From Bacteroidota bacterium (lineage in GTDB: Bacteria > Bacteroidota > Ignavibacteria > Tepidaquicellales > Tepidaquicellaceae): DNA of 64,000 bases. Location: positions 696,419 through 760,418 of the forward strand of contig JAFDZP010000002.1 in assembly GCA_018266835.1 (NCBI GenBank), read 5' to 3'. Below, in pieces: positions 1,703-49,045 of this stretch (positions are counted from its first letter, which is position 1; each line of letters starts with the position of its first letter). Under the pieces are notes generated by a model. It searched no databases, was not told where the DNA came from, and saw only the letters and a list, made by a program, of their open reading frames with translations. A program made the position numbers and the translations under genes.

Positions 1703-1717
1703 GTAATAATTATAGTC

Positions 1718-5916: not shown

Positions 5917-7780
5917 TCTTTCTGTTACAAATCTCCTGCAAAACAATCAGCATCCAAATTATATTACTATTATCTTTTTTACCAAGGGAATTCTCTGTTA
6001 TGAAATTTTTAATTGCGGATTCATTCAGACCGAAATCATTCTTGTACAATTTTTCCAATCTCTCTTTCATTTCAGGTTCTTTGAACCATTCAACTAGGGG
6101 TACTCTGAATCCTTTCTTCGAAGCTTTCAATAAAGATGGAGGCAGCAGCTTTTTCCCGATTGTATTTCTTAATATACTTTTTCTCTCAAGTCTTTCCATC
6201 TTAACACTTTTATCTATTCCAACCGAAAATTCAACAAGCCTGTGATCTATAAAAGGAACACGTGCTTCAAGTGAGTGCGCCATAGACATTCTGTCTACTT
6301 TTACAAGATAATCTTCAGGAAGAAAAAGTTTAAAATTTAAAAACATTAATTTATAAAAATCTCCTTTATAGCTGCAGTGTGAAAGCAAATCGTTTGTATA
6401 GTCCTCAATAGAATAAATATCGTTTCTGTTTTTGAATAAATTTTTTACCGAACTGATTTCATTAGTGGGCATACGCTCTATCATACTTGAAGCAAAATCA
6501 AGGTTTGCAGTCCTGAATAATCTTTCATATCTGTTTATTCTGTACCGCATTGTCCCTCTGGTAGATTTCGAAACCAAACCTAAAGCACCCGGTACAACTT
6601 CTCGGACGAAACCCGGTACTTTTTTATAATAAGAGGAAAGCTTAACTCCCTGAAAAGAAGGGTAACCTGAAAGTACTTCATCACCTCCGTCACCGGTAAG
6701 AACCATCTTGACATATTTTCGTGCAAACTGCGATACAATTCCTGTCGGGATTGCAGAAGAATCTCCGAACGGTTCATCATAATGATACAAAACCTTATTT
6801 AAAGATTCATCAAATGATTCCGGAATTACGTTATAAACATGATGATTAGTATTAAATTTATCCGCGACATCCTGTGCGAGATCTTTTTCATCAAATGCAG
6901 ATTGTTCGTATCCTATCGTAAATGTTTCTACCGGATATTTTGAAATTTCTGACATCATTGCAACGATACTGGCGGAATCAAGTCCCCCGCTGAGCAGCGC
7001 TCCGAAAGGAACATCACTTCTCATTCTTATATCAATGGAATTTTTCAGCAGTGATTCAAACTCTTCATAAATGGCTGGTTTGTTTTTAGCCATGCTCCTT
7101 TCATCAATTTCAGGCAGGTCCCAGTATTTATGTTCCTTTACGTCATTATCTTTTATTATAAGATAATGTCCCGGCATTAACTTTTTAATATTTTTAAAAA
7201 ATGTAAACGGGGCAGGAATGAATTTCAGGAAGAAATATAACTCAACTAACGATAAATCTTTTTCATCCGGAACTCCAAAAGCAAACAGGCTTTTTATTTC
7301 AGAACCAAATATAAATGTATTATTAAAGACGGAATAGTGTATAGGTTTTTCACCTAATCTATCCCTTGAAACAAATAAATATTTTTCTTTGTCATCCCAT
7401 ATGGCAAACCCCCAGCAGCCGTTTAATTTCGATTGGCAGGCTGTTCCCCATTGCTGATAGGCATGAATTATTACCTCAGTATCGGAAGTTGTCCGGAATT
7501 TATGTCCTAAAGATCTTAATTCTTCTTTTAGTTCTATATAATTATAAATCTCTCCGTTAAAAACTAAAGCAATAGTCTTATCATCACTGAACATCGGCTG
7601 GTCACCGGTGGATAAATCTATTATAGATAGTCTTCTGTGACCCAGCGCTAAATTTTTATCAATAAAAAATCCTTCTCCGTCAGGTCCGCGATGAGCAATA
7701 ACATCAGTCATTCTCTTTGCAATTTCCTTTGAAGCAAATTTTTCTTTATCAAAATTTATATATCCTGCTATTCCGCACAT
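5909..7780 (-). CDS. AsnB-type glutamine-dependent amidotransferase (second copy)
   Basis: This 623-residue protein shows Cys2 (MCGIAG), RGPDGEG near 31, GHRRLSIIDLS near 48, NGEIYNY near 75 and the PP-loop SGGLDSA at 264-270, so both the glutaminase and ATP-pyrophosphatase domains look intact. It differs widely from the copy at 1718-3640, so the two are old paralogues rather than a fresh duplication. The start codon overlaps the stop of the upstream acyltransferase (TAATG), and the 3' end overlaps the double glycosyltransferase, which implies translational coupling. A role in amidating a uronic or nonulosonic acid carboxyl group is inferred from the operon. Ordinary asparagine synthesis cannot be excluded from sequence alone. 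Confidence 0.88.
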   Translation of the reverse strand: MCGIAGYINFDKEKFASKEIAKRMTDVIAHRGPDGEGFFIDKNLALGHRRLSIIDLSTGDQPMFSDDKTIALVFNGEIYNYIELKEELRSLGHKFRTTSDTEVIIHAYQQWGTACQSKLNGCWGFAIWDDKEKYLFVSRDRLGEKPIHYSVFNNTFIFGSEIKSLFAFGVPDEKDLSLVELYFFLKFIPAPFTFFKNIKKLMPGHYLIIKDNDVKEHKYWDLPEIDERSMAKNKPAIYEEFESLLKNSIDIRMRSDVPFGALLSGGLDSASIVAMMSEISKYPVETFTIGYEQSAFDEKDLAQDVADKFNTNHHVYNVIPESFDESLNKVLYHYDEPFGDSSAIPTGIVSQFARKYVKMVLTGDGGDEVLSGYPSFQGVKLSSYYKKVPGFVREVVPGALGLVSKSTRGTMRYRINRYERLFRTANLDFASSMIERMPTNEISSVKNLFKNRNDIYSIEDYTNDLLSHCSYKGDFYKLMFLNFKLFLPEDYLVKVDRMSMAHSLEARVPFIDHRLVEFSVGIDKSVKMERLERKSILRNTIGKKLLPPSLLKASKKGFRVPLVEWFKEPEMKERLEKLYKNDFGLNESAIKNFITENSLGKKDNSNIIWMLIVLQEICNRKND

Positions 7781-8379
7781 TATATCTTCATACCGATTTC
7801 GTTATACAACTTTTCTATTTCTTCAAAAGTGTATTTTGAGTTTACCAGTTTCAAATGTTCCTTTAATTCTTCCCGTGAGAATCTGCATTTTATTGTTTTC
7901 GAAGGACTGCCGACATTTATAGAATAAGGAGGAACGGATTTTGTTACCATTGAACCTGCCCCGATAACTGAACCCTCACACGCTTTCACACCTTTTAAAA
8001 TCATTGCTCTTGCTCCAACCCAAACATCATTTTCAAAAATCACCGGAATATTTTTCCCTCCGGTATGAACAAATCTCATTGGTTTACCCACAACACTTAT
8101 ATTATGATCACCTCCCATTACCATTACTTCAGGACCAAACATCACATTGTCACCAATTTTTACAGGAACAATTGCTGCAATCACAGACTTATCCCCTATA
8201 AATACATTATCACCGACTTCAATTTTGCGATGGTCTGAAAATGTACAGTTAGAACCAAACTTAAAATTTTTCCCATGACTTTTAAGTGAATACCGTGTTA
8301 AATAAAATTTTAACGGCCATAAGAAATTTGGTATCGCTCTGAGTACCCAGCTTAATTTTGTAGGATTAATATTAATCAA
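7780..8379 (-). CDS. Left-handed beta-helix acyltransferase (CysE/LacA/WbbJ-like)
   Basis: The 199-residue protein is dominated by hexapeptide repeats (IEVGDNVFIGDKSVIAAI, then VKIGDNVMFGPEVMVMGG) and has the catalytic-type His in GGDHN. The C-terminal VPPYSINVGSPSKTIKCRF stretch is typical of maltose/galactoside O-acetyltransferase relatives. It probably acetylates a sugar hydroxyl using acetyl-CoA. No PglD-type N-terminal nucleotide-sugar domain is present, so it is a poor candidate for the missing 4-N-acetyltransferase of the nonulosonic pathway. The only reachable start is TTG at 8379, 6 nt after the upstream stop. No ATG occurs in frame before about residue 84. Confidence 0.85.
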   Translation of the reverse strand: MININPTKLSWVLRAIPNFLWPLKFYLTRYSLKSHGKNFKFGSNCTFSDHRKIEVGDNVFIGDKSVIAAIVPVKIGDNVMFGPEVMVMGGDHNISVVGKPMRFVHTGGKNIPVIFENDVWVGARAMILKGVKACEGSVIGAGSMVTKSVPPYSINVGSPSKTIKCRFSREELKEHLKLVNSKYTFEEIEKLYNEIGMKI

Positions 8380-8385
8380 AATAAT

Positions 8386-9534
8386 TTAAATAATATTTTT
8401 TTTCCAAACGGTTGTATTTATGTAATCAGTATATGAAATAATAATACGCACAACTTTATCGGAAACGTTATCCATTGAATAATCTTTCACATGATGGAAT
8501 TTAGTTTTTTGATTTTCTTCGTACTCAAGCTGCTTCAACCCGTTTATTACCAAGTCCGGATTCATTCCCACCATCATTACAGCTGACTCTTCCATACCTT
8601 CCGGTCTTTCATGCGCTTCTCTGATATTCAAAGCAGGAAATTTAAGTATTGATGACTCTTCCGTTATTGTTCCGCTGTCTGAAAGTACTGCTTTTGAATT
8701 CTTCTGAAGCTTAACATAATCAGTAAACGAAAACGGCTTAAGAAATTGTATAAGAGGATTAAATTCAAGCTTACCTTCTTCAATTCTTTTTCTTGTTCTC
8801 GGATGTGTGGATAAAATTACAGGCATCTTATATAATTCAGCAATCTCATTTAAAATTTTAACAAGATTTGAAAAATTTCTGTCTGAGCTTATATTTTCTT
8901 CCCGGTGAGAAGAAACTACAAAATAATTTTTTGGTGTTAGTGAAAGATGTTTTAATATTTCGGAGTTTTCAATTTTGTCTGAAAAATAATTCAGCACCTC
9001 ATACATAGGACTTCCTGTTTTTATTATTCTATCGGCAGGCAATCCTTCCCTCAACAAATATTCTCTTGCAATATCGCTGTATGTCAAATTTATATCGCTG
9101 ATGTGGTCAACAATTTTCCTGTTTGTTTCTTCAGGCACTCTCTGGTCGAAACACCTGTTGCCGGCTTCCATATGAAAAATAGGAATTTTTCTTTTCTTAG
9201 CATTAAGACAGCAAAGACAGCTGTTAGTATCTCCCAGAACCAGAAAGGCATCGGGTTTTTCTTTTTCTAAAACTTCATCTATGTTAACTATAGTGTTGCC
9301 AATTGTCGTTGAAGCATTATTGCTCGACGCATTAAGAAAATGGTCAGGCTTTCTAAGCTCCATATCATCGAAAAAAATCTGGTTGAGCTCATAATCATAA
9401 TTTTGCCCCGTATGGACGAGTATATGCTCAATCGCAGGAGAACTATCCAGCTTGTTTAAAACTCTTGCCAGCCTTATAATTTCAGGTCTGGTACCTACAA
9501 CTGTCATTACTTTTAATTTTTTATGCTCAGACAT
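8386..9534 (-). CDS. capG: UDP-sugar 2-epimerase of the L-FucNAc pathway (FnlC/WbjD/CapG-like)
   Basis: This 382-residue protein belongs to the non-hydrolysing UDP-GlcNAc 2-epimerase (WecB) superfamily. Near the N-terminus it has TVVGTRPEIIRL, then HTGQNYDYELN and HMEAGNRCFDQRVPEETNR, and towards the end SDSGTITEESS. The long conserved block around RVPEETNRKIVDHISDINL and YLLREGLPADRIIKTGSPM is the form I associate with the FnlC/WbjD/CapG subgroup, which converts the 6-deoxy-L-talose intermediate to UDP-L-FucNAc. Its partner capF lies immediately upstream, 9 nt away, which supports the subgroup call. The first pathway enzyme (CapE/WbjB) is not in the window. Confidence 0.85.
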   Translation of the reverse strand: MSEHKKLKVMTVVGTRPEIIRLARVLNKLDSSPAIEHILVHTGQNYDYELNQIFFDDMELRKPDHFLNASSNNASTTIGNTIVNIDEVLEKEKPDAFLVLGDTNSCLCCLNAKKRKIPIFHMEAGNRCFDQRVPEETNRKIVDHISDINLTYSDIAREYLLREGLPADRIIKTGSPMYEVLNYFSDKIENSEILKHLSLTPKNYFVVSSHREENISSDRNFSNLVKILNEIAELYKMPVILSTHPRTRKRIEEGKLEFNPLIQFLKPFSFTDYVKLQKNSKAVLSDSGTITEESSILKFPALNIREAHERPEGMEESAVMMVGMNPDLVINGLKQLEYEENQKTKFHHVKDYSMDNVSDKVVRIIISYTDYINTTVWKKNII

Positions 9535-9543
9535 TATAATTTA

Positions 9544-10662
9544 TTAAACGTTTTCAAAATAAGTGTCGGGATTTGCTTCGTCATAAAATTCATTTATCCA
9601 GAAGACAGTAAAAAGCTCATCACTCCCTACATTTTTAATATTATGCGTGTACCATATAGGCATATCTACATACGAAGGTTCATCTCCGTTCAGATGAAAA
9701 GTATAAACTTTATCGGTATTAATTTTTCTGAATTCAATTACAGCTTTACCTTTTATAACTGCAAATCTTTCGACTTTTCTTGTATGAAAATGATTTCCTC
9801 TTACTATATCTGGTTTAGTAGTTGAAAAAGAAATCTGTCCGCCTGAGTGTAATTTCACAAGTTCAATAAATACACCTCTATTGTCTTCGTTTCTTTTTAG
9901 TTTATACGGGAAAAAACTCTCAGGATTTATATAGCTTCTGAAAGTATTGAACAGGTCAATGGAAAACTTATCATCTAAAGCAGGTATAATACCTTTATCG
10001 CAATACAAGCTTTGAAAGTTCATAAGCTTGGCAAGTATTTCAGTCACAAGAAAACTATCAGTAGCTTTTATAACATGCTTTGGCTCATTTGTTTTATTAA
10101 TTATACAATCTATGATTTCCTTGCAAAGGTCATCAACATAAATCAGATTAAGTTTTTTATCAACAAGAATCTCCGGCATTCCCCCGCTGCAAAGCAGATC
10201 AGAAAAAGTTGCAACTACGGAATTGTATTTTGGCTTTCCGAACGGACCGAACACATTTGATATAATCAGTCCGGAAAAAACAGAACCTGTTTCTTTAGAC
10301 CAATCGGTAAATAATTCCCGGGCTTTTCTTTTTGAGTTACCGTAAGCATTATCTTCTTCCTCCTGAGTAGAAGAAGCAAAAATAAGATGCGTAGGATTTT
10401 TTTTATTCCTTAGAGCTGTAATTAAATCAGTTGCAAGCCTTAGATTTGTTTCTAAAATCTCATTCGGATTCGAGCTTCTGTTCAACCCTGCTAAGTGAAC
10501 TACTACGTCACACTCAGCAACCCATTTATTTAAAGCATCCGGCTCATCGAAAAATTCTTTTTCAAACGGAATTAATTGAAATCTATCTTTTGACAGACTA
10601 ATTCTGTTATATAAATTGGAGCCGATAAATCCGTTTTGCCCGGTGATACCGATTTTTACCAT
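9544..10662 (-). CDS. capF: UDP-2-acetamido-2,6-dideoxy-hexulose reductase (CapF/WbjC-like)
   Basis: The 372-residue protein joins an N-terminal SDR domain (GITGQNGFIGSNL at the NAD(P) site, YGNSKRKARE as the Y-x3-K pair) to a C-terminal cupin from about residue 245. The cupin metal-site motif GNHFHTRKVERFAVIKGKA is clear. This SDR-cupin fusion is characteristic of CapF/WbjC/FnlB, the bifunctional epimerase-reductase acting before the CapG 2-epimerase in UDP-L-FucNAc synthesis. The gene lies directly upstream of capG, and the pair is normally preceded by capE. A gap of about 80 nt with no hairpin separates it from the next gene upstream. Confidence 0.88.
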   Translation of the reverse strand: MVKIGITGQNGFIGSNLYNRISLSKDRFQLIPFEKEFFDEPDALNKWVAECDVVVHLAGLNRSSNPNEILETNLRLATDLITALRNKKNPTHLIFASSTQEEEDNAYGNSKRKARELFTDWSKETGSVFSGLIISNVFGPFGKPKYNSVVATFSDLLCSGGMPEILVDKKLNLIYVDDLCKEIIDCIINKTNEPKHVIKATDSFLVTEILAKLMNFQSLYCDKGIIPALDDKFSIDLFNTFRSYINPESFFPYKLKRNEDNRGVFIELVKLHSGGQISFSTTKPDIVRGNHFHTRKVERFAVIKGKAVIEFRKINTDKVYTFHLNGDEPSYVDMPIWYTHNIKNVGSDELFTVFWINEFYDEANPDTYFENV

Positions 10663-10740: not shown

Positions 10741-11922
10741 CTAATTAACAGCATTTGCAGTGAGAAACTTCAGGAGTTTTGCAGATTGAACTTTATAGTT
10801 AAATACATTTTTAGCAGCCTTCTTTCCATTCATGCCCATTTCTTTATATCTATCGTAATCAGAAAGAATCTTCTCAATTGCAGATGCTAAAGCAGCACTG
10901 TCATCAGGAGGAATAATCAACGCCTCTTTTTCGTTTTCTAAAACTTTACTCACATCACTAATATCTGTAACAACAACCGGAGTACCGCTTGCCAGATATT
11001 CTCCCAATTTTGTCGGAAATCCAAAATCAGCTTGAGGTGATGAAGGCCTTGCAAGAACTGCCATAACTGAGTTTTGAAGAAAAGTTACAATCTCATCTCC
11101 GCTAAGATAACTCGTGACTTCAATTTTTGATTCAAGCTTATGTTCAGAAATCAGTTTATCCATCTCTGTTTTATAATCTGAAAAATATGAACCTGCTAAC
11201 TTTAATCTGATACCAGGATAATTTTTTGAAACAACGGAAAGTGCATTTATTAAATCAGAGACTCCGTCTTTATGCTGATTTATAGAACCACAGTATGCAA
11301 TGTAACCGTTAGTTATATTCTTGTTGATTTCATTATCAAATGTTGAAAACCGTTCGTAATCAACAGTCATACTAATAATTTCTACGTTTTTATTGAACTG
11401 ACTTACATATGAAAACAATGCTGAAGAGATAACGTAGCACATATCATATTTTGCTATGTGCTTTTCATAAATTTTTACTTCCAGAGGATCATTTGTATAA
11501 ACTTTGACATCTTCAGTCAACTCCAGCACAGTAGTATACTTTTTTATTTTGGATATCAACAGAACAATATTATCAACAAACCAGAATTTTCTTTTTGACT
11601 GATAATTTATAACAATATCATTTTTTCCGGCAAAAAGAGTTAACCATAAAATCAAATTTATTGTACCTATGTAAAGCGCTGCTATGTTATTGAATTTTCC
11701 TTCACGTTGAGACTTAACTGTAAAAAAACTAAGATTTGAATATTCCAAATATTCTGTCTTTAGTTTCAGAGACTTGCTTGGAACCAGACCCCATATTTTT
11801 ACATGTTTTGTAATTAATCCCAGACCTTTAGCTAACGAGCTTAACCTGTTTACACCTGCATCAGCTTTTAAGTTAAAATCCTGTAATGTTATAAATATTA
11901 TTTTTCGATCGGAAAGGCTCAT
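10741..11922 (-). CDS. GT4-family glycosyltransferase
   Basis: This 393-residue GT-B protein has an N-terminal acceptor domain beginning IIFITLQDF and a C-terminal nucleotide-sugar domain. The latter shows IAYCGSINQHKDGVSDLI, LKLAGSY and, near residue 300, PSSPQADFGFPTKLGEYLASGTPVV, where the second Glu of the E-x7-E motif is in GEYLASG. No signal peptide or membrane anchor is evident, so it should act at the cytoplasmic face on lipid-linked intermediates. It lies 18 nt after the upstream polymerase gene. The sugar transferred cannot be told from the sequence. Confidence 0.82.
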   Translation of the reverse strand: MSLSDRKIIFITLQDFNLKADAGVNRLSSLAKGLGLITKHVKIWGLVPSKSLKLKTEYLEYSNLSFFTVKSQREGKFNNIAALYIGTINLILWLTLFAGKNDIVINYQSKRKFWFVDNIVLLISKIKKYTTVLELTEDVKVYTNDPLEVKIYEKHIAKYDMCYVISSALFSYVSQFNKNVEIISMTVDYERFSTFDNEINKNITNGYIAYCGSINQHKDGVSDLINALSVVSKNYPGIRLKLAGSYFSDYKTEMDKLISEHKLESKIEVTSYLSGDEIVTFLQNSVMAVLARPSSPQADFGFPTKLGEYLASGTPVVVTDISDVSKVLENEKEALIIPPDDSAALASAIEKILSDYDRYKEMGMNGKKAAKNVFNYKVQSAKLLKFLTANAVN

Positions 11923-11940: not shown

Positions 11941-13221
11941 TCAAGCTTGCTCAAGATTTTCAACAAGCTTACCTTGCGATCTTAATAAAGGAACTCGTCT
12001 TCGGATTGGTTCTTTAGCCCAGAAAGTATGATTATCAAATCTTACCAAGAACATAAAGCATAAAGCCATAAAGAACGGTTTTTGGAAAAGACCTTGAGAG
12101 TAGCCAAGTACCAGCATTCCCGCTAATATAGCAAATGGAAAGAGTGTATTAAATTTATGTTTTCTGCAGTAAGCTCTGTACGATAAAAACATCATCAAAA
12201 AATAATATGAAAATCCGACTAATCCAAACTCAGCCAATAACAGTGTCGTTCCGTTATTACCTGTATTTTCTTCATCACTAACCTGAAAAAATCTTCCTAT
12301 ACCAAAAATTGGAGAAGAAAAAAAGTTGTTCAGATTAATTTGACCACTGACAATCCTGGAGTAAACTTTCTCCGTACCGGCTTTTTTGGAATCCGAATAC
12401 ATTTTATTTACCTTTTCCTCCATGAAATCCAGTCTTGAATATAGATTAAGGAAGATAAAAATAAGTAACGGCATTAGTATAAAAGAATAAATGCTTCTAT
12501 ATGAAATAAGAATGTAGATACAAATAAAAATAAAGAAAGCAAGGTAAGCGGTAGTAGATTGAGTTGTCAGAATAGCAATAAGGAAAATAATATTTTTCTT
12601 ATTGAAGAATTTTTTATTTCTTACAATGTTAAAAGTCAGAGCGATGAATAAAAAAACAGAGAATCCGCCCGGTTCCCAAAATGGTCCCGAATTTCTCGGT
12701 ATCTCAACCTTCCATCCAAGCTCCATAGTATAGATAATAAAATGCTGACGATTAGGTTGAAAAATTGTAATTTTATCAAACCAGGGAGTAATGTTTGCAA
12801 AAATATAATCTGCTAAGCCGGGATTTGCAAAAATCAATCCTGTTACAATTAAGCTGATAACCGAGAAGAAATATATTTGATTTACAATGTACCTGTCGAT
12901 CTGGCTTCCTATAATTTTTACAGTGAAATAAGCAAAATAAATTCGCATGAAATATGCGACAATGATGCTCAATATAAATTTATCATAGGCCAGAACATGA
13001 AGCCCGAATAAAGCAAGGAAGACAAGATTGTAAGAAACGATAACACGATCAAATCTTTTCCCCTTCCCAATGAAAATTAACATTGATAAGAAAAAGCCGA
13101 CAATTAAATACTCATTACCGAACAATATGGGCATGGAAGACACACCCATTAAAAGATATAACAGAAAATGGTTTAAAAAAGAATTCTCAGTTTTTTTCTG
13201 TAGTAAGAGATTATTCTGCAT
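11941..13221 (-). CDS. Wzy/WaaL-like O-antigen polymerase, copy B
   Basis: This 426-residue integral membrane protein has roughly ten hydrophobic helices and one large loop holding PNRQHFIIYTMELGW and RNSGPFWEPGGFS, as expected of O-antigen polymerase/ligase-type proteins. The later GNNGTTLLLAEFGLVGFSYY segment also fits this class. It is closely similar along its whole length to the gene just upstream (13211-14494), and the two overlap by 11 nt. Both copies look intact. In a Wzx/Wzy pathway one polymerase is usual, so the second could be a ligase or make a second linkage. Which copy does what cannot be decided from sequence. Confidence 0.82.
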   Translation of the reverse strand: MQNNLLLQKKTENSFLNHFLLYLLMGVSSMPILFGNEYLIVGFFLSMLIFIGKGKRFDRVIVSYNLVFLALFGLHVLAYDKFILSIIVAYFMRIYFAYFTVKIIGSQIDRYIVNQIYFFSVISLIVTGLIFANPGLADYIFANITPWFDKITIFQPNRQHFIIYTMELGWKVEIPRNSGPFWEPGGFSVFLFIALTFNIVRNKKFFNKKNIIFLIAILTTQSTTAYLAFFIFICIYILISYRSIYSFILMPLLIFIFLNLYSRLDFMEEKVNKMYSDSKKAGTEKVYSRIVSGQINLNNFFSSPIFGIGRFFQVSDEENTGNNGTTLLLAEFGLVGFSYYFLMMFLSYRAYCRKHKFNTLFPFAILAGMLVLGYSQGLFQKPFFMALCFMFLVRFDNHTFWAKEPIRRRVPLLRSQGKLVENLEQA

Positions 13222-14494
13222 CTAGAGCTAAACTTGTTTTTGATTTCAAAATATTATTTCTCATTCTTGAATTACTATTCAGAATATTTTTGTATTCAAA
13301 GTTTAAATGAGGTTTAAAATTAATCAAGTACATGAATGAAAGTCCGATAAAAAAAGGTTTTTGGAAAATTCCTTGGGAATAGCCAAGTATTAAAATAGAA
13401 ATAATTATTACAAAAGGATACTTATTGTTAAAATTCAAAGCCTTACAGTAATTTTTGTAAGAAGCATACATGCAAATCATATAATAACTGAATCCCACAA
13501 TTCCAAACTCTGCAAGAAGCAGAGTTGTTCCGTTGTTCCCGGTGTTTTCTTCATCTTCAATTTGAAAGAACCTGCCGATACCAAATATAGGAGAGGAAAG
13601 GAAATTACTGAAATTAATATTTCCGCTTACAATTCGTGAGTTTACTCTTTCTTTATAAGCAATTTGTGATTCAGAGTACATTTTTTCTACTTTACCTTCC
13701 ATAAAATCCAGTTTTGAGTAGAGGTTAAAAAACACAATAACTAAAATTGGAAGTACTACTGCAGAATATATTAACTTGTAGCGAATAACAATAAATAAAA
13801 TTACAAATACGAATAAAGCCAGATATGCTGAAGTTGACTGCGTTGTAATAATTGACAGAAAAAAAATAATATTCTTTAAATTTACAATTTTCTTGTGGCG
13901 CGCTATATTAAAAAAAAGTGCTACAAAAAGAAAAATCGCAAACCCTCCCGGTTCCCAGAAGGGTCCGGAGTTTCGTGGTATATCCAGCTTCCAACCCAAC
14001 TCCATTGTATAAATTATAAAATGCTGTCTATTAGGATGGAAATAAGTAAGTCTATCAAAAAAAGGAGTGATTTCCGAATTTACAAAATCAATTAACTGAG
14101 GGAATAAATAAAATAAAAAAGTAATGATGAGACTTATAATAGCAAAAAAATAAATCTGATTTATAATGTATCTGTCTGAATTTTTCCCGACAATTTTTAT
14201 TATAAAATATGCCAGAAATATCCTCAGGAAATACGCTATAAAAATTGAATATATAAACTGATTATAAACAAATATGTGTACGAAGAACAAACCAAGGAAG
14301 GCCAAAGAATAACTTATAATAAACGAGTCTATCTTTAAACCCTTCAGAAAAAAAATTACGAGAGCTAAAAAAAAACTTATAATTAAAAAAGGATTCCCGA
14401 TCAAAATAGGAATTGAAGAAATTCCCATCAGCAAGAAAATCATGAAGTGATTTAGAAATGCTGATTCCCTGGGAGCAGAATATAAATTGAACAT
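13211..14494 (-). CDS. Wzy/WaaL-like O-antigen polymerase, copy A
   Basis: This 427-residue polytopic membrane protein shares with its downstream neighbour nearly the whole pattern: AYFLRIFLAYF, DRYIINQIYFF, PNRQHFIIYTMELGW, RNSGPFWEPGGF, SRIVSG and GNNGTTLLLAEFG. By eye more than half of the residues are identical, and the insert positions match, so the pair arose by tandem duplication followed by substantial divergence. The role is polymerisation of lipid-linked repeat units on the periplasmic side, or ligation. The start codon lies 7 nt after the stop of the upstream GT-like gene. Confidence 0.82.
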   Translation of the reverse strand: MFNLYSAPRESAFLNHFMIFLLMGISSIPILIGNPFLIISFFLALVIFFLKGLKIDSFIISYSLAFLGLFFVHIFVYNQFIYSIFIAYFLRIFLAYFIIKIVGKNSDRYIINQIYFFAIISLIITFLFYLFPQLIDFVNSEITPFFDRLTYFHPNRQHFIIYTMELGWKLDIPRNSGPFWEPGGFAIFLFVALFFNIARHKKIVNLKNIIFFLSIITTQSTSAYLALFVFVILFIVIRYKLIYSAVVLPILVIVFFNLYSKLDFMEGKVEKMYSESQIAYKERVNSRIVSGNINFSNFLSSPIFGIGRFFQIEDEENTGNNGTTLLLAEFGIVGFSYYMICMYASYKNYCKALNFNNKYPFVIIISILILGYSQGIFQKPFFIGLSFMYLINFKPHLNFEYKNILNSNSRMRNNILKSKTSLALDAE

Positions 14495-14501
14495 TTATTT
14501 A

Positions 14502-15821
14502 CTAAGGCAATTTAATATTCTCAAGTTTTTTAGCTGTCCCGCTCTGTATAAGATTATCCATCATTTCAGCACCGGGTAAATCTATCACAAAAATTTCACA
14601 GTTAAAATACAATGCCTCTATAAGCGCAGTAGTATAAACGCCAATTACTTTTTTCCCGTCTGAGAGATGGGAATAAAGATTTTCATTTATACCTATAGTA
14701 GTAAAATTTTTAAACCCGGAAAGTTCTTCATATTTTTTAATACCTGATATAAATGTGTATTCATTCGGATGAGGCTTATAAAAAAAATTATACTTTGGAT
14801 TATCTTTTACTAAACCAAAAATATTGTCTAAAATTCGTTCTGTCAATGTATCCTGTGAAAGTATTAAAACTTTATTAGGAATTTTAGCAACACCCTTGTA
14901 TTTTTCCGCTTCTGTTTTCAGAGTATAATTTTCAATATACTCGATGTTATCTGAAGAAAGCGGCAGCTTGCATCCGCCCAGCCATGACTCCGACCACGCT
15001 AAAAATTTATCCGGAAAATAATCTAATTTATTTTCCGGTGAAGCCGGATAATGATAAATGATATCTTTCGAAGAAACAAATCCGTGCTGAATATCAATCA
15101 CCTGAATTTTTCTTTTCTTACATTCACTTATAAGCGCAGCTTTATCACAGAAGTTAACAATGTAAATTTGTTTCGGTTTTTTTATTTCAAGCAGCTGCGA
15201 ATAAAAACCGGACAGTATAAAAAAATTAATTAACTGGTTTTTGATAAGGCTTAACAAATTTAAAGTCAGGTTTAAATTAGTTTTAAGCTCTTTCCCCAGT
15301 TTATTAATTGAATCAAGTTCTTCCTGTGTAAATTCTAATTTAAAAGATTTTGATTTATAACCGACTGTAAGAAAAAAATAATCTAAATGTTTTGTGTTTT
15401 TAGTTTTTACTGAAAGTCTGTCAAAAAAATATGAAGACTGATAAACTGTATATTCTGAATTAGATTTTTTAAGCTGTAGTTTAATCGAGGCAGTGAAAGG
15501 GTCTATATACTCATTATTTATTTTTTGCTTTCGTGAACTTTCAAAAAGCAGTGTATCTATCTGCTGCTTATCTTTTAACGGATTATAAAAAAAAAAATTC
15601 TTCAGCCTCGAAGCTTTATTCAAAATTTTACTGAATAAACCGCTATTTAGAACAGAACCCTTTCCTTTCTGCTCAATATTTGAATTTATTGCGTTAATGT
15701 ATATCAGATATCTTACAACCTGATAAATTTTTACTCCCTTTAGCTCCCAGTTGAGAAGATCGTGCTTAGCTTCAAGCTCAAGCATTTTATCTGTAATCTT
15801 TCCAATGGTATCAAATTTCAT
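14502..15821 (-). CDS. Putative GT-B polysaccharide transferase (capsule-synthesis/CDP-glycerophosphotransferase-like)
   Basis: The 439-residue protein has no signal peptide. Its C-terminal half carries a recognisable set: QVIDIQHGFVSS, VLILSQDT, FFYKPHPNE and GVYTTALIEALYF followed by IFVIDLPG. This resembles polysialyltransferase, KpsS and CDP-glycerol glycerophosphotransferase-type GT-B enzymes, in which the HG and KPHP motifs contact the donor. The N-terminal half is lysine-rich and unrecognised. It sits beside the flippase and the CMP-nonulosonate genes, so transfer of the nonulosonic acid is an attractive guess, not a demonstrated role. It overlaps the wzx gene by 11 nt. Confidence 0.6.
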   Translation of the reverse strand: MKFDTIGKITDKMLELEAKHDLLNWELKGVKIYQVVRYLIYINAINSNIEQKGKGSVLNSGLFSKILNKASRLKNFFFYNPLKDKQQIDTLLFESSRKQKINNEYIDPFTASIKLQLKKSNSEYTVYQSSYFFDRLSVKTKNTKHLDYFFLTVGYKSKSFKLEFTQEELDSINKLGKELKTNLNLTLNLLSLIKNQLINFFILSGFYSQLLEIKKPKQIYIVNFCDKAALISECKKRKIQVIDIQHGFVSSKDIIYHYPASPENKLDYFPDKFLAWSESWLGGCKLPLSSDNIEYIENYTLKTEAEKYKGVAKIPNKVLILSQDTLTERILDNIFGLVKDNPKYNFFYKPHPNEYTFISGIKKYEELSGFKNFTTIGINENLYSHLSDGKKVIGVYTTALIEALYFNCEIFVIDLPGAEMMDNLIQSGTAKKLENIKLP

Positions 15822-17121
15822 TTTTCTTTTTTAAAGAAAGTAATTTCTTTTTGAAATCAAAACCCTTTGTTACTTTATAGCAGACTGCTAAAGAAAAAAT
15901 CAGATATAGAAACTGGGCAATTACCAAACCAACCGAAACTCCATCAATAGGAGACATTATTGAAGCAAAAAATTGCATCAAAAACCAGAATGCAGCAAGC
16001 TTAAAAATTAAAAGTATGGTAAGCCACTTAAACTCTTTTAAAGTGTTAAGAACATTTATACCAACACCTGCAGAATCTAAAACTCCGGCAATCAATGCCA
16101 TCTGACATGCAAAAATCCCGGGAATATAATTCTGAAAATATTTTTCTATAAAAAACGGGATAGTGAACCAGCCTATTAACACTGCAGGAAAACCTATTAA
16201 TAGCATTGCAAAGGCAGACTTCCATACCCACTTCCATAACTTTTTTGCATCGTTAAACTTTCCAAGATTGTATGACATCTGCGGATAAATGTACTGCCCT
16301 ATAGCTGCAGGCAGCATTGCTATGCCGGATAAAATTGCAATAGCAGGCGAATAATATCCTACCACAACAACTCCGCCGATAGTCAGTAAAATTGTTCTGT
16401 TGAATGTTTTTGACAGGTCATCAAAATATCCAACGATATAAATTGGCAGTCCTGTTTTTATTAATTCTTTAAAAGAAGATTTAATAAATTTAGGTTTCAC
16501 CCTGATAGGTCTGACAGCGTAAACAAAAACAGTGGTAAAAATACTTATAAGAACGGTTCTTAAAACTAATCCGTAATAATTCCAAAAATACGGAAGCACA
16601 ATTGTTACAATTGTAAACCCGCTTATATACAACTGAATCTTAGAAAGTTTTACAAACTCATGATTAGCGCGGTAAGTAACATTCAGATATGTATTATAAA
16701 AAGCTGACGCAGTAATTAATCCTATAGAGAGGATACCAAATAAAAGTTTTATATCATTAGATACAAAAAAATAAACATATGCTGATGCAAGCACACATAC
16801 GGCAAGCAAAATATAATTTAAGTATGTGATAAAAGCATTTGCAGTCTGCGCCAGCTTAACTATGTATTCATTATCACCTTTGCCTATGAAAAACGGAAGT
16901 TCCCTGTTCAATCCGCTTAACGCTCCAAGCTGTAAAATTGCAGCATATGACTGAATGAGAGACACGGAATTCCACATGCCAACATCCTCGGGAATAACCC
17001 ACTTAATAATTATTATTCCGCTTATCAGCTTTACAACACTGAGTATTACCGAAGATGAAGAAAATAACAGCGCAGCTTTATTATTAAAAGTGGCTATTAG
17101 TTTTTTAGAACGTTCAATCAA
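15811..17121 (-). CDS. wzx: Wzx-type oligosaccharide flippase
   Basis: This 436-residue membrane protein has about twelve hydrophobic segments in the MATE/polysaccharide-transporter arrangement. These include the N-terminal SSSVILSVVKLISGIIII helix, WVIPEDVGMWNSV, and a middle repeat GLPIYIVGYFDDLSKTFNR. It should move undecaprenyl-linked repeat units from the cytoplasmic to the periplasmic face for the adjacent Wzy-like polymerases. The start is a TTG at 17121; no better start exists nearby. The 3' end overlaps the following transferase gene. Confidence 0.87.
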   Translation of the reverse strand: MIERSKKLIATFNNKAALLFSSSSVILSVVKLISGIIIIKWVIPEDVGMWNSVSLIQSYAAILQLGALSGLNRELPFFIGKGDNEYIVKLAQTANAFITYLNYILLAVCVLASAYVYFFVSNDIKLLFGILSIGLITASAFYNTYLNVTYRANHEFVKLSKIQLYISGFTIVTIVLPYFWNYYGLVLRTVLISIFTTVFVYAVRPIRVKPKFIKSSFKELIKTGLPIYIVGYFDDLSKTFNRTILLTIGGVVVVGYYSPAIAILSGIAMLPAAIGQYIYPQMSYNLGKFNDAKKLWKWVWKSAFAMLLIGFPAVLIGWFTIPFFIEKYFQNYIPGIFACQMALIAGVLDSAGVGINVLNTLKEFKWLTILLIFKLAAFWFLMQFFASIMSPIDGVSVGLVIAQFLYLIFSLAVCYKVTKGFDFKKKLLSLKKKNEI

Positions 17122-17146: not shown

Positions 17147-18226
17147 TTATGAGATGTGCAGTCTTTCAACAGCTTTTTTGTATTCAGTCCATTCGCCGGT
17201 ATCTATCCAGGAATTTTCGCTGATAGGATAAACACCAACCTTACCTCCGTTATTTTTAATTGCCTCAATAAAATCTGTCATATCAAAATATTTATCTTCA
17301 GGTATAAAATTTATTGTGTCAGGATTAATAACATACATTCCTGTATTTACAAGATAATCATATTCGGGCTTCTCATTAATTTTAGTTAGCTCACCGCCAT
17401 TTTCAATCTCGCAGATACCGTATGGAATTTTATATTTTTTAAATGATGCAGCAATAGTTAGATCAAATCCTTTGTTCTTATGAAATTCAACAAAGCTTGC
17501 ATAGTCACAGTCAATTATTATATCACAGTTAGTTATAAATATAGGTTCTGAGAATTTTTTATTTAATAGTTTCATACTCCCTGCCGTTCCCAGCGGTTTA
17601 TCTTCAACAACATACTCAACATTATACTCAGGAGCTAATTCCTCAAAATAAGATTTAATAATTTTAGCTTTATGATTAAGCGTCAAGTAAAAATTCCTTA
17701 TATCGTTTTCAATAAAAAATTTATCTATGATAATTTCAATTACTGCTTTTTCTCCTATGGGAATTAACGGTTTCGGAAGAATTCTGGTAAACGGATCTAA
17801 ACGGGAACCCTTCCCCCCCGCCATAATAACTACAGAATTAGTTAACTTTGTTTTGAAAGATTTATGTTCATGAAGGTCAAATATATTATTCCAGAAAAGT
17901 ATATCAATTATTCTTTTATCTTTATCAAGTACCGGTATAGCTGATATTCTTAAATCTAATATTACCTTTTTTATTTCTTCTATATCATAATTTTCATATG
18001 CAAATGTCGGATTTTTAAAGCACACTTTTTCTGCAGTTAAATCCATATTCCCTTCCGATAGAATCCATCTTCTGATGTCACCGTCAGAAATTGAACCATA
18101 TAAGCTTTCATTGTCATCGACTACAAATAAAATTCTTTCTCCTGCTTTATCAAGCATTGAGATAGCATCTTTTATTAAAACGTTTCTGTGTATTATAAAT
18201 TTCTTATTTTCTTCTCTCAAATTCAT
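17147..18226 (-). CDS. CBS-domain sugar-1-phosphate nucleotidyltransferase (PtmE-like)
   Basis: The 359-residue protein begins with a pair of CBS domains (about 1-115; SDGDIRRWIL and ISAIPVLDKDKRI). A nucleotidyltransferase domain follows, with the signature MAGGKGSRLDPFTRILPKPL near residue 131 and the metal-site segment NCDIII. In Campylobacter this fusion (PtmE) makes GDP-glucosamine at the start of the GDP-linked legionaminic acid route. The neighbouring nonulosonate genes support the same role, though the nucleotide specificity is not readable. CBS domains suggest regulation by adenine nucleotides. ATG 18226 was chosen over a TTG two codons earlier; it lies just after the upstream stop. 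Confidence 0.8.
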   Translation of the reverse strand: MNLREENKKFIIHRNVLIKDAISMLDKAGERILFVVDDNESLYGSISDGDIRRWILSEGNMDLTAEKVCFKNPTFAYENYDIEEIKKVILDLRISAIPVLDKDKRIIDILFWNNIFDLHEHKSFKTKLTNSVVIMAGGKGSRLDPFTRILPKPLIPIGEKAVIEIIIDKFFIENDIRNFYLTLNHKAKIIKSYFEELAPEYNVEYVVEDKPLGTAGSMKLLNKKFSEPIFITNCDIIIDCDYASFVEFHKNKGFDLTIAASFKKYKIPYGICEIENGGELTKINEKPEYDYLVNTGMYVINPDTINFIPEDKYFDMTDFIEAIKNNGGKVGVYPISENSWIDTGEWTEYKKAVERLHIS

Positions 18227-18228
18227 AT

Positions 18229-19383
18229 TCAAACATTAATATCATAAAACTTCTTTTTAGAAGAAATATTGTTTATATTTTTTTTAATTATTGTCAGCAT
18301 TTGTTTTGCCGCAGTTCCGTTGCCGTACGGACTTTTATTTGCTGATGAATTTCTTTTTATACTTATTGCTTTTTTTATTCCTGAAACTATATCCGCTGTT
18401 CCACACTTAACGCTTATAATACTTTCACTCATTATTCTGCCTTTCTGTCTATCGCCAATATTAATAGTCGGAATTCCCATAAAAGGAACTTCAACAATTC
18501 CGCTTGAAGAATTTCCAATGACTAAATCAACATTCTTTAAAGTTGAAAGATATCTTTTCTGTCCGAGATTCGTGAATGCGTAAGCATTATTTCTCTTTGC
18601 GACAAATTTATTAACCATCTCAATTATTTCTCTGCCGCCTGTATCGGAATTCGGCATTGTAAAGATTAATTTCATTTGAGGAAATTTTTCTAAAGCTGAT
18701 AGTACCTTTTCAAATTGTTTCTTTGGAGACTCTTTATCCAATGTAACAGGATGAAATGTTACTAAAGCAGTTTTGCTGTCAAATGTAAGATTTAAATCTT
18801 TTTCTAAATCCTTTTTTGAAATTAATTTCAGATTTTTAATATTGTCTAATCCTAAAGCTCCGACATTGTAAACCGATTTTGGATTTTCCCCCAGCTGAAT
18901 AATTCTTTTTTTATAAATTTCAGTGGCAGCAAAGTGAAGCGACGACATTTTTGTTATTGAGTGTCTGATACCTTCATCAAACGCACCCTCAGTTGTTTCT
19001 CCACCTGCAATGTGTGCAATCGGAATATTCATTAAGTATGCACTTGTAGCAAGCGCCATCATTTCGTATCTATCTCCGAGAATAACAAGTAAATCGGGCT
19101 TTAATCTGTTAAAAACATCCGATGCCGATATCATTGCAAGTCCCATTGCTTTTACAATTGCAGTATCTGTATCTGCTGAAAGCAGCATTTCAATTTTTTC
19201 AGTAACTTTGAATCCGTCTTTTTCAATTTCATTCACAGTCATTCCAAACTCAGGAGATAAGTGCATAGCAGTAGCAATAATCTGCAGTTCAAGATTTTTA
19301 TCTTTTTTAATAAGAGTCATTAACGGATTTAATAATCCGTACTCTGCTCTTGTACCCGTAGCTATGCAGATTTTGTTTTTCAC
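18229..19383 (-). CDS. Hydrolysing NDP-N-acetylsugar 2-epimerase (NeuC/LegG-like)
   Basis: This 384-residue protein of the NeuC family has IATGTRAEYGLLNPLM at the N-terminus, LLVILGDRYEMMA near residue 100, HIAGGETTEGAFDEGIRH and, near the C-terminus, VIGNSSSGIVEVPFMGIPTINIGDRQKGR. These enzymes invert C2 and release the nucleotide, giving the ManNAc-type sugar that NeuB condenses with phosphoenolpyruvate. The neighbouring PtmE-like and LegC-like genes favour a di-N-acylated bacillosamine substrate (LegG) over UDP-GlcNAc, an inference from context. The start is GTG at 19383, overlapping the neuB stop by 4 nt. Confidence 0.87.
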   Translation of the reverse strand: MKNKICIATGTRAEYGLLNPLMTLIKKDKNLELQIIATAMHLSPEFGMTVNEIEKDGFKVTEKIEMLLSADTDTAIVKAMGLAMISASDVFNRLKPDLLVILGDRYEMMALATSAYLMNIPIAHIAGGETTEGAFDEGIRHSITKMSSLHFAATEIYKKRIIQLGENPKSVYNVGALGLDNIKNLKLISKKDLEKDLNLTFDSKTALVTFHPVTLDKESPKKQFEKVLSALEKFPQMKLIFTMPNSDTGGREIIEMVNKFVAKRNNAYAFTNLGQKRYLSTLKNVDLVIGNSSSGIVEVPFMGIPTINIGDRQKGRIMSESIISVKCGTADIVSGIKKAISIKRNSSANKSPYGNGTAAKQMLTIIKKNINNISSKKKFYDINV

Positions 19384-20384
19384 AATTCTATAAATTCATC
19401 TTTAGAAAATTTTCTCTTCGCTTTTTTGCCAACAACTTCATTCCATCTCATAGGATTAATTCCGGAACCCGGTCTCTTCACAATCAAATTCTCATCAGTA
19501 AAAACTTCTCCCTCTTCTATATCATGCGCAGCTAAAATACTTTTGCGGGCTATTACTATATTTTTTTCTTCAGATGCTGCAATTTGTTTATCGCCGTCTC
19601 CCATTGCTAAATCAACATTACGGATGCATCGAACCATTTCTGCCAGCTCATAGGGTTCTAACGAAGCAAGATGGTCGGGACCTTCCATAGTTTTATCTAG
19701 TGTAAAATGTTTTTCCACGACAGTTGCTCCAATAGCCGCTGCAGCAATTGAAACTTCAATCCCTTTTGTATGGTCAGAATATCCGACATTAACATTAAAT
19801 GTATCTTTCAATGTAAGCATAGCTTTTAAATTAACATCTTCAAGCGGTGTAGGATATTCAGTTGTGCAATGAAGCAGTGTGATTTTTTCTTTATCAGTTC
19901 CTGATGCAACAATTAAATTCAAACACTCTTCAACATCATTTAGAGTAGACATGCCTGTTGAAATTATAACATTCATATTCTGTTCGCCGATTCTTTTCAG
20001 ATATGGATAATTTGTAATTTCTCCGGAAGGAATTTTCATATAAGGCATATTAAAGCTAAGCAAAAGCTCTAAGGATTTCATATCGAACGGAGTGGATAAA
20101 AACATAATATTGTTTTTTTCACAGTACTCTTTAAGCTCTTTGTATGCTTCCAGCGGTAAATGAATTTTTTTCGCCATCGCTATCTGCGAACCTGCTTCAC
20201 CTGTATTGGTAATCTGATATTCTGCCTTCGTTGCATATTCAGTCATAACAAGTTCAGGAACTGCTGTCTGAAATTTCACTGCATCTGCCCCTGCTTTAAC
20301 TGCTTCATTAATTAGTTTGTAAGCAAGCTTAATATTCCCGTTGTGATTTACTCCTGCCTCTGCTATTATAAAGGTTCTCTTCAT
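19380..20384 (-). CDS. Nonulosonic acid synthase (NeuB/LegI-like)
   Basis: This 334-residue protein has the NeuB TIM-barrel opening FIIAEAGVNHNG, then AVKFQTA, MKIPSGE and TLLHCTTEYPTP. DHTKGIEVSIAAAAIGATVVEKHFTLD follows, and from about residue 275 a C-terminal SAF (antifreeze-like) domain with VKRPGSGINP. It condenses a ManNAc-type hexose with phosphoenolpyruvate to form a nine-carbon nonulosonic acid. The neighbours point to a legionaminic-type product rather than sialic acid. The gene overlaps both neighbours by 4 nt, a tightly coupled set with the 2-epimerase and the HAD protein. Confidence 0.9.
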   Translation of the reverse strand: MKRTFIIAEAGVNHNGNIKLAYKLINEAVKAGADAVKFQTAVPELVMTEYATKAEYQITNTGEAGSQIAMAKKIHLPLEAYKELKEYCEKNNIMFLSTPFDMKSLELLLSFNMPYMKIPSGEITNYPYLKRIGEQNMNVIISTGMSTLNDVEECLNLIVASGTDKEKITLLHCTTEYPTPLEDVNLKAMLTLKDTFNVNVGYSDHTKGIEVSIAAAAIGATVVEKHFTLDKTMEGPDHLASLEPYELAEMVRCIRNVDLAMGDGDKQIAASEEKNIVIARKSILAAHDIEEGEVFTDENLIVKRPGSGINPMRWNEVVGKKAKRKFSKDEFIEL

Positions 20385-21016
20385 TGTTCTGCTATATCAA
20401 GGATTTCGTATAATTTTTTGTACTCTGTATTAAATAAAAACTTGATCCCAAGTTTTTCACAAACTCCGTCTTTTTCAATCGAATCACCTATATAAATCAT
20501 TTCTTCCGGCTTTATGTTGAAATCATTCAGTACCGTTTCAAATATCTTTAAATCAGGCTTTCTCATCGGGGGATTGAACTCATCAGAAATATAAATCTTA
20601 TCGACTACAGATAAAAGATTCAAAACCTGAATTTTGTTTTTCTGGATTGTAACTCCTCCATTTGTAATCAGAATAATTTTGTAACCTTTGTTTCTGATTT
20701 TTTGCAGAACAGGTTTTACCCACTCAAAAGTCTTCAGGGTAAAATCAGGCTTATGATTTCTGTAAAAAGGAAGAATCTTATCTTTTACAAAATCATCCCA
20801 TGTATTTGGTAGTTCATATCCGCTGTTAACTACTGCCTTATCAAACAATCTGTCAAAATCTTTTACATCAAATAGCTTCTGCATTTCTGCAAAAACTTTT
20901 TCTTTATCAAATCCGAATTTATATTCTACCGATTTTGCAATCGATTCAAAAAGAATTTTTTCATAATCCCATTGAGAATATAAAGTGTCATCTAAATCAA
21001 ACCCTATAACTTTCAA
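20381..21016 (-). CDS. HAD-superfamily phosphatase (subfamily I)
   Basis: The 211-residue protein has the HAD motifs FDLDDTLYS (nucleophile Asp7, acid Asp9), ITNGG in motif II, the conserved Lys in RKPDLKIF and YIGDSIEKD in motif IV. A helical cap lies between motifs I and II. HAD phosphatases in nonulosonate clusters may remove the 9-phosphate when a phosphorylated route is used, or act on an intermediate specific to this glycan. The immediate neighbours are NeuB and an ATP-grasp protein. The start is a TTG at 21016 overlapping the ATP-grasp stop. Substrate unknown. Confidence 0.8.
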   Translation of the reverse strand: MKVIGFDLDDTLYSQWDYEKILFESIAKSVEYKFGFDKEKVFAEMQKLFDVKDFDRLFDKAVVNSGYELPNTWDDFVKDKILPFYRNHKPDFTLKTFEWVKPVLQKIRNKGYKIILITNGGVTIQKNKIQVLNLLSVVDKIYISDEFNPPMRKPDLKIFETVLNDFNIKPEEMIYIGDSIEKDGVCEKLGIKFLFNTEYKKLYEILDIAEQ

Positions 21017-21999
21017 ATCAGATCCAGTAATTTATCAGTGTAAACTGCATTATCGTACCTTAAAACGTAAAAACCGGTTTTATATCTTATGCCGTTTATC
21101 TTTTCAAATGGAGTATTTTCAACATAATTTTTTATATGCTGAATCATATTTGCCCCTGCAGTATGTGATAAAGGATATCCGCCGCCGAATCGTGGATTTA
21201 TTTCTCCGAGGTAAACCTTATCCTTTTCAATCATAACCTGTATATTTACCATTCCCTCAATTTTCAATTCACTTACAACTTTCTTGATCACATCTGCAAC
21301 TTCGGGAATATTTACTGTCACTCCTTTTTCAACTTCTCCGCCTCTCGTACTGATTCTTTTTCTCTGACAATACTCTACTACATTTCCCTGACCGTCACCA
21401 TAAACATCAACTGTAATTTCTTCAGAAAAATTTATATACTGCTGAACAATATATGAATCCGAATCTAATTTTTTAGTATCAGCTATGGATTTTACCTCAT
21501 CAGGCGAAGCAAAATAAATTCCTTTAGAAGCAGAACCTGCCGAAGGCTTAAGAATTAATTTTTCGTGATTAGTGTCAGCAGCTTTTAAAAGATAATCTTT
21601 CAACAGCCATGTTTCGGGCTGTAATATATCTGTGTCTCTGAATCTTAAAAAGGTTTGATACTTATCGTTGGATAACTTAACAACTTCGTAGTCAGGTACA
21701 CAGACATGAACTCCAATCTCATTAAATTTTTTCTTGTGTTTTGCAAACAATGGAAGCTCGGGATCAATTAACGGAAGTACAATCTGAGGCTTCTCTTTTT
21801 TACAAATTTCTAAAACATCATCTAAATATTTTTCATCTATTTTAAGCGGCACTTCATGAACTCTATCCAGAATATAGGCTGCCGGAGAAGTTTTAAATGC
21901 ATCTGCGCCGATGAATTCATAACCTGAAAATTCTTTTTTAAAAAAACTTATCAGTTCAAATCTTCTTCCGGGAGATGTAAATAAAATTTTCTTTGTCAA
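21013..21999 (-). CDS. ATP-grasp ligase (carbamoyl-phosphate-synthase-like)
   Basis: The 328-residue protein has an N-terminal Rossmann-like part (ILFTSPGRRFELI) and a central ATP-grasp domain. The latter shows LILKPSAGSASKGIYFA in the ATP loop, DSYIVQQYINFSEEITVDVY, and the metal-binding segment VYLGEINPRFGGGYPLS. The family joins a carboxylate to an amine or thiol through an acyl-phosphate. Homologues occur in surface-polysaccharide loci without firm assignment. Lying between NeuB/HAD and the WbpG amidine module, it could attach an amino acid or other acyl group to the amino-sugar, a role otherwise lacking an enzyme here. The start is TTG 21999. Confidence 0.8.
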   Translation of the reverse strand: MTKKILFTSPGRRFELISFFKKEFSGYEFIGADAFKTSPAAYILDRVHEVPLKIDEKYLDDVLEICKKEKPQIVLPLIDPELPLFAKHKKKFNEIGVHVCVPDYEVVKLSNDKYQTFLRFRDTDILQPETWLLKDYLLKAADTNHEKLILKPSAGSASKGIYFASPDEVKSIADTKKLDSDSYIVQQYINFSEEITVDVYGDGQGNVVEYCQRKRISTRGGEVEKGVTVNIPEVADVIKKVVSELKIEGMVNIQVMIEKDKVYLGEINPRFGGGYPLSHTAGANMIQHIKNYVENTPFEKINGIRYKTGFYVLRYDNAVYTDKLLDLI

Positions 22000-22006
22000 A
22001 ACTTTA

Positions 22007-23236: not shown

Positions 23237-23247
23237 TAAATTATAAT

Positions 23248-24776: not shown

Positions 24777-24782
24777 TTAAGG

Positions 24783-25487: not shown

Positions 25488-25518
25488 AGAGTACGGAAAT
25501 GAATTCTATGAAGATGAA

Positions 25519-37816: not shown

Positions 37817-38194
37817 AGGCAAAAATGCTAGCCGTAATATATTTAGATTATCTGAAGTGCATTTGAAAAATAAAAAATGCCTCTGGGATTAATTTTAAAA
37901 AAGAGTTTGGAATAGGAATCTTTTTTGGGAATAACAGCGGATAGCAGGCAAGAAAAAAGGGATAAATTTAATTCTCTTTGAACTGCTTGGGTATTAAATT
38001 TCTTTATGAATTTTATAATTTTTTTTAAAACTATAAAAGCTTCCAAACCATAAACAGATGTTTCAAAATAATCCTTAAAATAGCGATTTATTGAGCATTT
38101 TTCAATCCTTTATTTTGTCGGAGACCCATACCAAAATGCCACATTATAGCAAAAATTTAGCCTATTTCTGTAAACTTTGCTCTATGCCCTTATT
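37817..38194 (-). other. Gene-free leader upstream of the antiterminator
   Basis: This ~380-nt stretch contains the candidate promoter and would give an untranslated leader of about 320 nt. Leaders of this kind carry the pause or ops-like sites through which RfaH/UpxY-type proteins load. I see no clear ops element and no strong hairpin. A 67-codon TTG-initiated frame (37843-38046) and a very short ATG frame lie here but show nothing protein-like. Confidence 0.45.
38143..38151 (-). promoter_or_regulatory. Candidate extended -10 promoter of the polysaccharide operon
   Basis: On the minus strand the sequence reads TGCTATAAT, a perfect extended -10 element, about 330 nt upstream of the antiterminator ATG. 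It lies just beyond the terminator of the preceding secreted-protein gene. A TTTACA about 20 nt further upstream is too far to be a good -35, which an extended -10 can tolerate. No experimental support; the consensus used by this lineage may differ. Confidence 0.4.
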
Positions 38195-49041: not shown

Positions 49042-49045
49042 TTTT

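Follow-up and report, generated by a model that had tools for sequence, protein, structure and literature searches.

Two overlapping paralogous Wzy-like genes in one polysaccharide operon of a Bacteroidota bacterium, predicted to encode two working polymerases

What would a polysaccharide operon do with two adjacent, overlapping genes for Wzy-like proteins, and how did the second one arise? The window analyzed here, 64,000 nucleotides of a contig from an Ignavibacteriales-related member of the Bacteroidota, carries on its minus strand wzyB (13211..14494, an open reading frame of 427 aa) followed by wzyA (11941..13221, 426 aa), both assigned by BLASTP, Pfam, tree, and motifs, and WzyA by a structural model as well. 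The initial annotation, made from the letters of the DNA, had described two intact, polytopic proteins of about 426 residues that are alike over their full length and overlap by 11 nt, and this description holds. Both frames are open from end to end, and 248 of 424 aligned positions are identical (58%) and 330 of 424 similar, in an alignment of 516 bits (BLASTP) that spans residues 6-424 of WzyA and 4-427 of WzyB and excludes chance likeness. The predicted structure of WzyA contains long helices, consistent with a polytopic protein. The overlap (13211..13221, minus strand), ATGCAGAATAA, contains the ATG of wzyA, which lies within the 3' end of wzyB, together with the stop of wzyB, and translational coupling from wzyB to wzyA is likely. 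The two loop motifs reported for both proteins were also located in each, PNRQHF at A156 and B154 and RNSGPFWEPGGF at A176 and B174.

On their sequences, WzyA and WzyB belong to the Wzy_C polymerase/ligase superfamily. In the protein scan against Pfam PF04932 (Wzy_C), WzyB scores 33.0 bits, 1.3 above the cut-off of 31.7, and WzyA 31.4 bits, 0.3 below it; in the genome search, WzyB (35.2 bits) and WzyA (34.0 bits) both exceed the cut-off. The NCBIfam scan gave no name to either protein, and a sequence search of solved structures with query A5 returned no meaningful match. An AlphaFold2 model, which covers WzyA and was built on 43 aligned sequences (pLDDT 85.8, pTM 0.87), has WaaL (7TPG) as its best match among solved structures (Z 15.1 over 344 residues, rmsd 5.5, 13% sequence identity), with RodA and FtsW, both SEDS proteins, next (Z 7.4 to 8.3). 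WzyA is thus modeled with a GT-C, WaaL-like fold, and WzyB is close enough in sequence for the same prediction. Together with the family match, this fold agrees with the original designation of the pair as Wzy-like.

We also looked for the motifs GN1 and GN2 as defined in section 8 of PMC12502699. GN1, Rx(11-24)GxG, is present in both copies (A289, B287) with a spacing of 17 (Rx17GxG), whereas GN2, HNx9Gx(2-4)G, is incomplete, with NNx9Gx2G at A322 and B320 and the His as its one missing residue, a form also seen in the homologues at loci L021-L026. Most type-B Wzys (PMC12502699) carry one or both of these motifs, so that the missing His is no bar to a type-B assignment. At the level of the locus, a Wzx-like flippase (15811-17121) and a Wzz/GNVR/AAA co-polymerase (27678-29921) are found in the same operon. 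Given the WaaL-like fold, the motifs, and the position beside wzx and the upstream gene X, "polymerase" is the best name for the predicted activity of both proteins. In the available parts of PMC12502699 and PMC4815439, Wzy_C-bearing polymerases are mostly tied to β linkages by inversion, and by analogy β linkages are predicted for both WzyA and WzyB.

Judged by its gene content, the surrounding region of the minus strand is a Wzx/Wzy capsule-type polysaccharide operon with nonulosonate genes. A NusG-like antiterminator (37295..37888) stands at its head, as such factors also do in capsule loci of other Bacteroidota, followed by sugar genes, a Wzz/Wzc-like co-polymerase and ATPase (27678..29921, domain match), and nonulosonate-type genes (17147..25505), whose orthologues in G015, the sole same-genus genome compared, are 62-98% identical. 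The latter comprise a nucleotidyltransferase with CBS domains, a 2-epimerase, a NeuB-like synthase, and a HAD protein, then an ATP-grasp protein, a WbuX amidotransferase, HisH/HisF-like proteins, and a cytidylyltransferase. The middle part contains the flippase (15811..17121, Polysacc_synt_3 domain match), X (14502..15821), wzyB, wzyA, and, directly downstream of wzyA, a GT4-type glycosyltransferase (10741..11922, domain match). Next come a WbjC-like UDP-2-acetamido-2,6-dideoxy-hexulose reductase (9544..10662, below the curated cut-off), a WecB-like UDP-HexNAc 2-epimerase (8386..9534, family match), a hexapeptide acetyltransferase (7780..8379, domain match), asparagine-synthase-like amidotransferase 2 (5909..7780), a fused tandem pair of glycosyltransferases, GT1+GT2 (3679..5946, 755 aa, domain match), and asparagine-synthase-like amidotransferase 1 (1718..3640).

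X is a GT-B fold protein with weak likeness to the BFO_1060-family glycosyltransferase, and is a putative nonulosonate transferase located directly upstream of wzy both in the window and in L021, L024, L025, and L026. For its model (pLDDT 84.1), numerous GT-B proteins are matches of similar quality, including 2-epimerases (Z 16.4) and a polysialyltransferase (15.8), so the fold does not settle which sugar it uses; a literature search on BFO_1060 found no paper.

Several other features of the window were recorded alongside. The cytidylyltransferase frame (24783-25519, minus strand, CTP_transf_3) has no ATG, GTG, or TTG before residue ~110, and its conserved N-terminus starts close to a codon CTG or ATA. 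A usual start is likewise missing there in the orthologue of G015, and a conserved non-canonical start is possible. Between the GT4-type glycosyltransferase and the acetyltransferase lie the WbjC-like and WecB-like genes (8386-10662, minus strand); the reductase is unmatched in the compared G015 stretch and the epimerase has a 33% match to a gene elsewhere, for which reason the two have the look of an additional sugar pathway that was inserted here. Zinc-dehydrogenase-like and GFO/IDH/MocA oxidoreductase parts share one frame at 2-1717 (minus strand) and beyond. Three large proteins, at 38279-39955, 46231-49050, and 52662-53939 (minus strand), have ends that match each other and G015 proteins, and the first of them bears a Por_Secre_tail sorting domain. 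Around the pair itself, inspection by eye for an invertible switch revealed weak AT-rich inverted repeats, none cleanly bracketing either wzy.

Several enzymes of the Wzy_C fold are ligases, and the His of the motif H[NS]x9Gx2G has a role in ligases. Since the WaaL-like fold is common to ligases and polymerases, one copy might have turned into a ligase or a glycan-to-protein transferase while the other continued as a polymerase; the first of these had been raised in the initial annotation. The loops make this quite improbable, as every loop motif is common to both copies, with N in place of the ligase-type His in each, and a search for a loop motif exclusive to one of them found none. Eight Wzy_C proteins above the cut-off are encoded in the genome, and H[NS]x9Gx2G occurs in three of the six besides WzyA and WzyB (L089, L091, and L093), which indicates that the best ligase candidate sits elsewhere, for example L089, which has a G015 counterpart that is 76% identical. 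We therefore set aside ligase conversion of either copy as neither needed nor favored.

The two genes appear to be under strong constraint. Omega (GY+F3X4) is 0.022 for WzyA, WzyB, and the G015 copy (409 codons) and 0.027 for five sequences (395 codons), values that are rough, with dS saturated (NG86 gives no value), and in which a recent relaxation could go unseen. Third codon positions differ between wzyA and wzyB twice as often as first and second positions (0.59 versus 0.28). High dN/dS as a sign of relaxed selection, named at the outset as evidence that one copy might be dispensable, was not seen, omega being 0.02-0.03 at saturated dS. In the two loops, WzyA and WzyB are identical at 82 of 100 positions, compared with 156 of 283 elsewhere, and the G015 copy shows the same pattern against each of them. 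Such a pattern is that of two working enzymes, as far as sequences can tell, and not of one with a changed center. The shared loop motifs and the constraint on both copies suggest that neither looks like a decaying spare, and as a long-term state this candidate was rejected in view of the intact frames and omega of 0.02-0.03. Accelerated evolution of WzyB was also considered: relative to the G015 copy, WzyB has 57 unique changes and WzyA 30 (p 0.0038), but no difference was found against seven more distant outgroups, and this candidate was set aside because the excess may reflect tree shape instead of rate.

Is the pair conserved as a pair? WzyA and WzyB are the sole members of their close family in their own genome. 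The family is present in 3 of 44 genomes of the order (E 1e-30, own genome included), in 8 of 391 of the class (E 1e-40), and in 5 of 395 of the phylum (E 1e-40), where the class and phylum samples overlap and four candidates were scored per genome; at all three levels, two copies occur in the own genome only. A contig scan showed one family frame in each of 55 related loci, within the flanking DNA examined (L029 and L042 end at contig ends), and whole-genome search gave a single copy in 13 of 13 of those genomes; several of the 55 loci coincide with genome-search matches, and the sets are not independent. The scan used alignment A3 with a pattern around RN[SAV]G..E and misses relatives without this pattern; queried with one protein alone, it found no relatives. 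Wzy_C genes at large were also examined for tandem arrangement: 57 of 61 class genomes have a Wzy_C match (own included), and a table read by eye contained no other two separate Wzy_C frames within 5 kb, the four near pairs each being two pieces of one ~700-aa frame. Conservation as a pair, proposed in the initial annotation as a check, was thus not found, and within this sampling the pair occurs in one genome, which had been listed there as counting against the proposal. Pair conservation consequently cannot be used as support.

G015 has a syntenic cassette (locus L021) with one wzy. Outside the wzx-to-glycosyltransferase cassette, 13 orthologue pairs are 69-98% identical between the window and G015, a range that also holds for the stretch of nonulosonate genes that begins with the epimerase and ends with the cytidylyltransferase; inside it, identity is 36% for X, 57-63% for wzy, and 33-36% for the next glycosyltransferase, and the Wzx-like flippase has no homologue in the syntenic G015 stretch. 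The gene order in L021, L024, L025, and L026 is X, one wzy, an acetyltransferase, and a glycosyltransferase, and the second wzy of the window occupies the place of that acetyltransferase. With the fused glycosyltransferase pair (3679-5946, minus strand), the cassette holds another duplication besides that of wzy. This glycosyltransferase is a single gene in L021, L022, L023, and L026 (39-65% identity); the halves of the fused pair are 55% identical to each other, and the single 377-aa frame of G015 shares 64% identity with the first of them and 52% with the other. A glycosyltransferase tree comparing the age of this duplication with that of wzy gave no resolution (AU p 0.33, 0.48, and 0.35).

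In a tree of 26 sequences, WzyA and WzyB are sisters (97/91) next to the G015 copy; constraining WzyA with the G015 copy costs 4.7 log units (AU p 0.127) and WzyB with it 5.1 (AU p 0.093), and neither is rejected. With the eight close rows, the sister pair has 89/89 and the two alternatives AU p 0.121 and 0.125, respectively; under LG+G4 these values become 94/92, and 0.065 and 0.062. The tandem duplication that had been proposed is hence supported by the sisterhood of the copies, although the AU test leaves a grouping of either copy with G015 standing. Its claimed age fares better, given the 58% identity and the four-fold sites, identical at 21 of 70 between wzyA and wzyB, at 15 of 77 between wzyA and the G015 copy, and at 19 of 67 between wzyB and the G015 copy. 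All three lie below the 623 of 1432 pooled over 13 further orthologue pairs that the two genomes share (p 0.026, 0.00002, and 0.016, respectively), and the three copies are nearly equidistant. The saturated synonymous sites and the low four-fold identity of wzyA and wzyB suggest that their split is about as old as that between the two species, or older. The copies differ at 38% of their bases, and a search for gene conversion or mosaic structure found none (max-chi p 0.61, best segment p 0.44, runs p 0.29); with a longest identical DNA run of 13 nt, recent conversion was rejected. The pair probably arose by an old duplication in situ, at about the time when this lineage and its same-genus relative diverged; we rank this history above an ancestral pair with loss in G015, and the latter above import of a second allele.

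A different history would make the second wzy a xenologue, brought in by recombination between serotype cassettes, possibly with X-wzyB coming from one cassette and wzyA and its glycosyltransferase from another; we regard both the general and the specific version as possible but doubtful. Of the syntenic locus, the cassette is the part that is hypervariable, and a merger would fit the near-equidistance of the three copies, their four-fold identity below that of the 13 other pairs, the AU results, and the changes shared with neither the other copy nor G015 (57 in WzyB, 30 in WzyA, p 0.0038), an excess absent with distant outgroups. Nevertheless, the two copies are the best-supported sisters in every analysis (97/91, 89/89, and 94/92), the codon make-up of membrane proteins may explain the low four-fold identity, and no donor was found: collections of phages, plasmids, and viral contigs, the last searched with one short pattern only, contained no relative that would indicate a phage or plasmid origin. 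That the pair is an assembly or annotation artefact has a negligible probability, even if the assembly is in 8 contigs, since the copies, with more than a third of their bases different, both lie inside one 1.75-Mb contig, and collapse or misjoin cannot account for a diverged, in-frame second copy.

In the reading we prefer, held with about as much doubt as confidence, two polymerases are at work and differ in the unit or the linkage for which they are specific. WzyA and WzyB would be polysaccharide polymerases of the GT-C type (WaaL fold) whose overlapping genes form a pair in a Wzx/Wzy operon, and one transcript would yield both proteins, WzyB first, with WzyA starting inside the end of WzyB. 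The lipid-linked repeat unit that the adjacent Wzx flips would serve both enzymes, each of them transferring the growing chain onto the next unit, and they would divide the labor by recognizing different unit forms or different hydroxyls of the acceptor; a difference of this kind is presumably why two such enzymes are most often kept. Two linkages, which the initial annotation had already named as a possibility, or a mixed polymer may then result. The duplicated and fused glycosyltransferase in the cassette fits a more varied unit. A fuller version, in which one operon encodes two co-expressed, subfunctionalised polymerases and a matching fused glycosyltransferase pair, and in which the units of one strain's polysaccharide are joined by two linkages, alternating or mixed, with no prophage or second locus involved, is rather unlikely in all its parts.

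The near-identity of the loops that carry the conserved residues would also fit two enzymes with one job. The copies would then form the same linkage from the same unit and be kept for dosage or for recycling of undecaprenyl-phosphate, an explanation that we consider unlikely, slightly more so than the fuller version above. Two identical functions rarely both survive in the long term, and the divergence to 58% identity with saturated synonymous sites, as well as the absence of any gene conversion signal (max-chi p 0.61, longest run 13 nt), argue against it. In its favor are the common loop motifs, the 82% identity of the loops, and the sequestration of the lipid carrier upon loss of the polymerase in Shigella and E. 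coli described in the consulted part of PMC11813082, which could favor a spare.

If the preferred reading of two specificities is right, the pair would be of use beyond this operon. The sequence of a Wzy reveals little of its specificity, as serotype homologues are too diverged and lie in different loci. Two paralogues that are 58% identical, have the same loop motifs, and draw on one pool of units would allow swaps that map the residues for linkage or unit choice. If both work, duplication within a cassette would also be a source of in-strain polysaccharide diversity, beyond prophages or allele exchange.

Compared with known systems, the pair resembles WaaL (7TPG) and other Wzy_C (PF04932) proteins in the fold of the WzyA model and in Pfam scores, and differs from WaaL in the lack of the His in NNx9Gx2G in both copies and in the low sequence identity (13% for WzyA). 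More than one wzy per cell, with a linkage that can change, is described for A. baumannii BAL114 and 36-1454, P. aeruginosa O16 (Wzy-α/β), and Salmonella in the accessible parts of PMC13228068, PMC9241936, PMC4815439, and PMC3715488; the second wzy of those strains has a separate origin and is located in prophages or elsewhere than in the first locus, whereas here the genes are overlapping close paralogues. In BAL114, two prophage wzy genes are associated with two linkages (PMC13228068, in part), and after receiving a second wzy, a pneumococcus produced 23A as well as 23F capsule (PMC12502699, section 9). According to the portion of PMC9241936 consulted, however, only one Wzy is functional in the two-Wzy strains of P. 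aeruginosa and Salmonella, and the phage enzyme of A. baumannii 36-1454 prevails over the second Wzy present, so that two genes need not give two linkages. Among the open-licence papers searched, as far as their text was available, no report was found of a tandem paralogous wzy pair in one operon. In Flavobacterium psychrophilum, likewise a member of the Bacteroidota, the type of O-polysaccharide wzy sets linkage and serotype, but wzy1 and wzy2 are alternative alleles in different strains (PMC6519341, available excerpt), whereas here both genes share one operon. Two Wzys in one cell are thus already known; close paralogues that overlap within the cassette, as seen here in one genome, were not found described in the papers searched.
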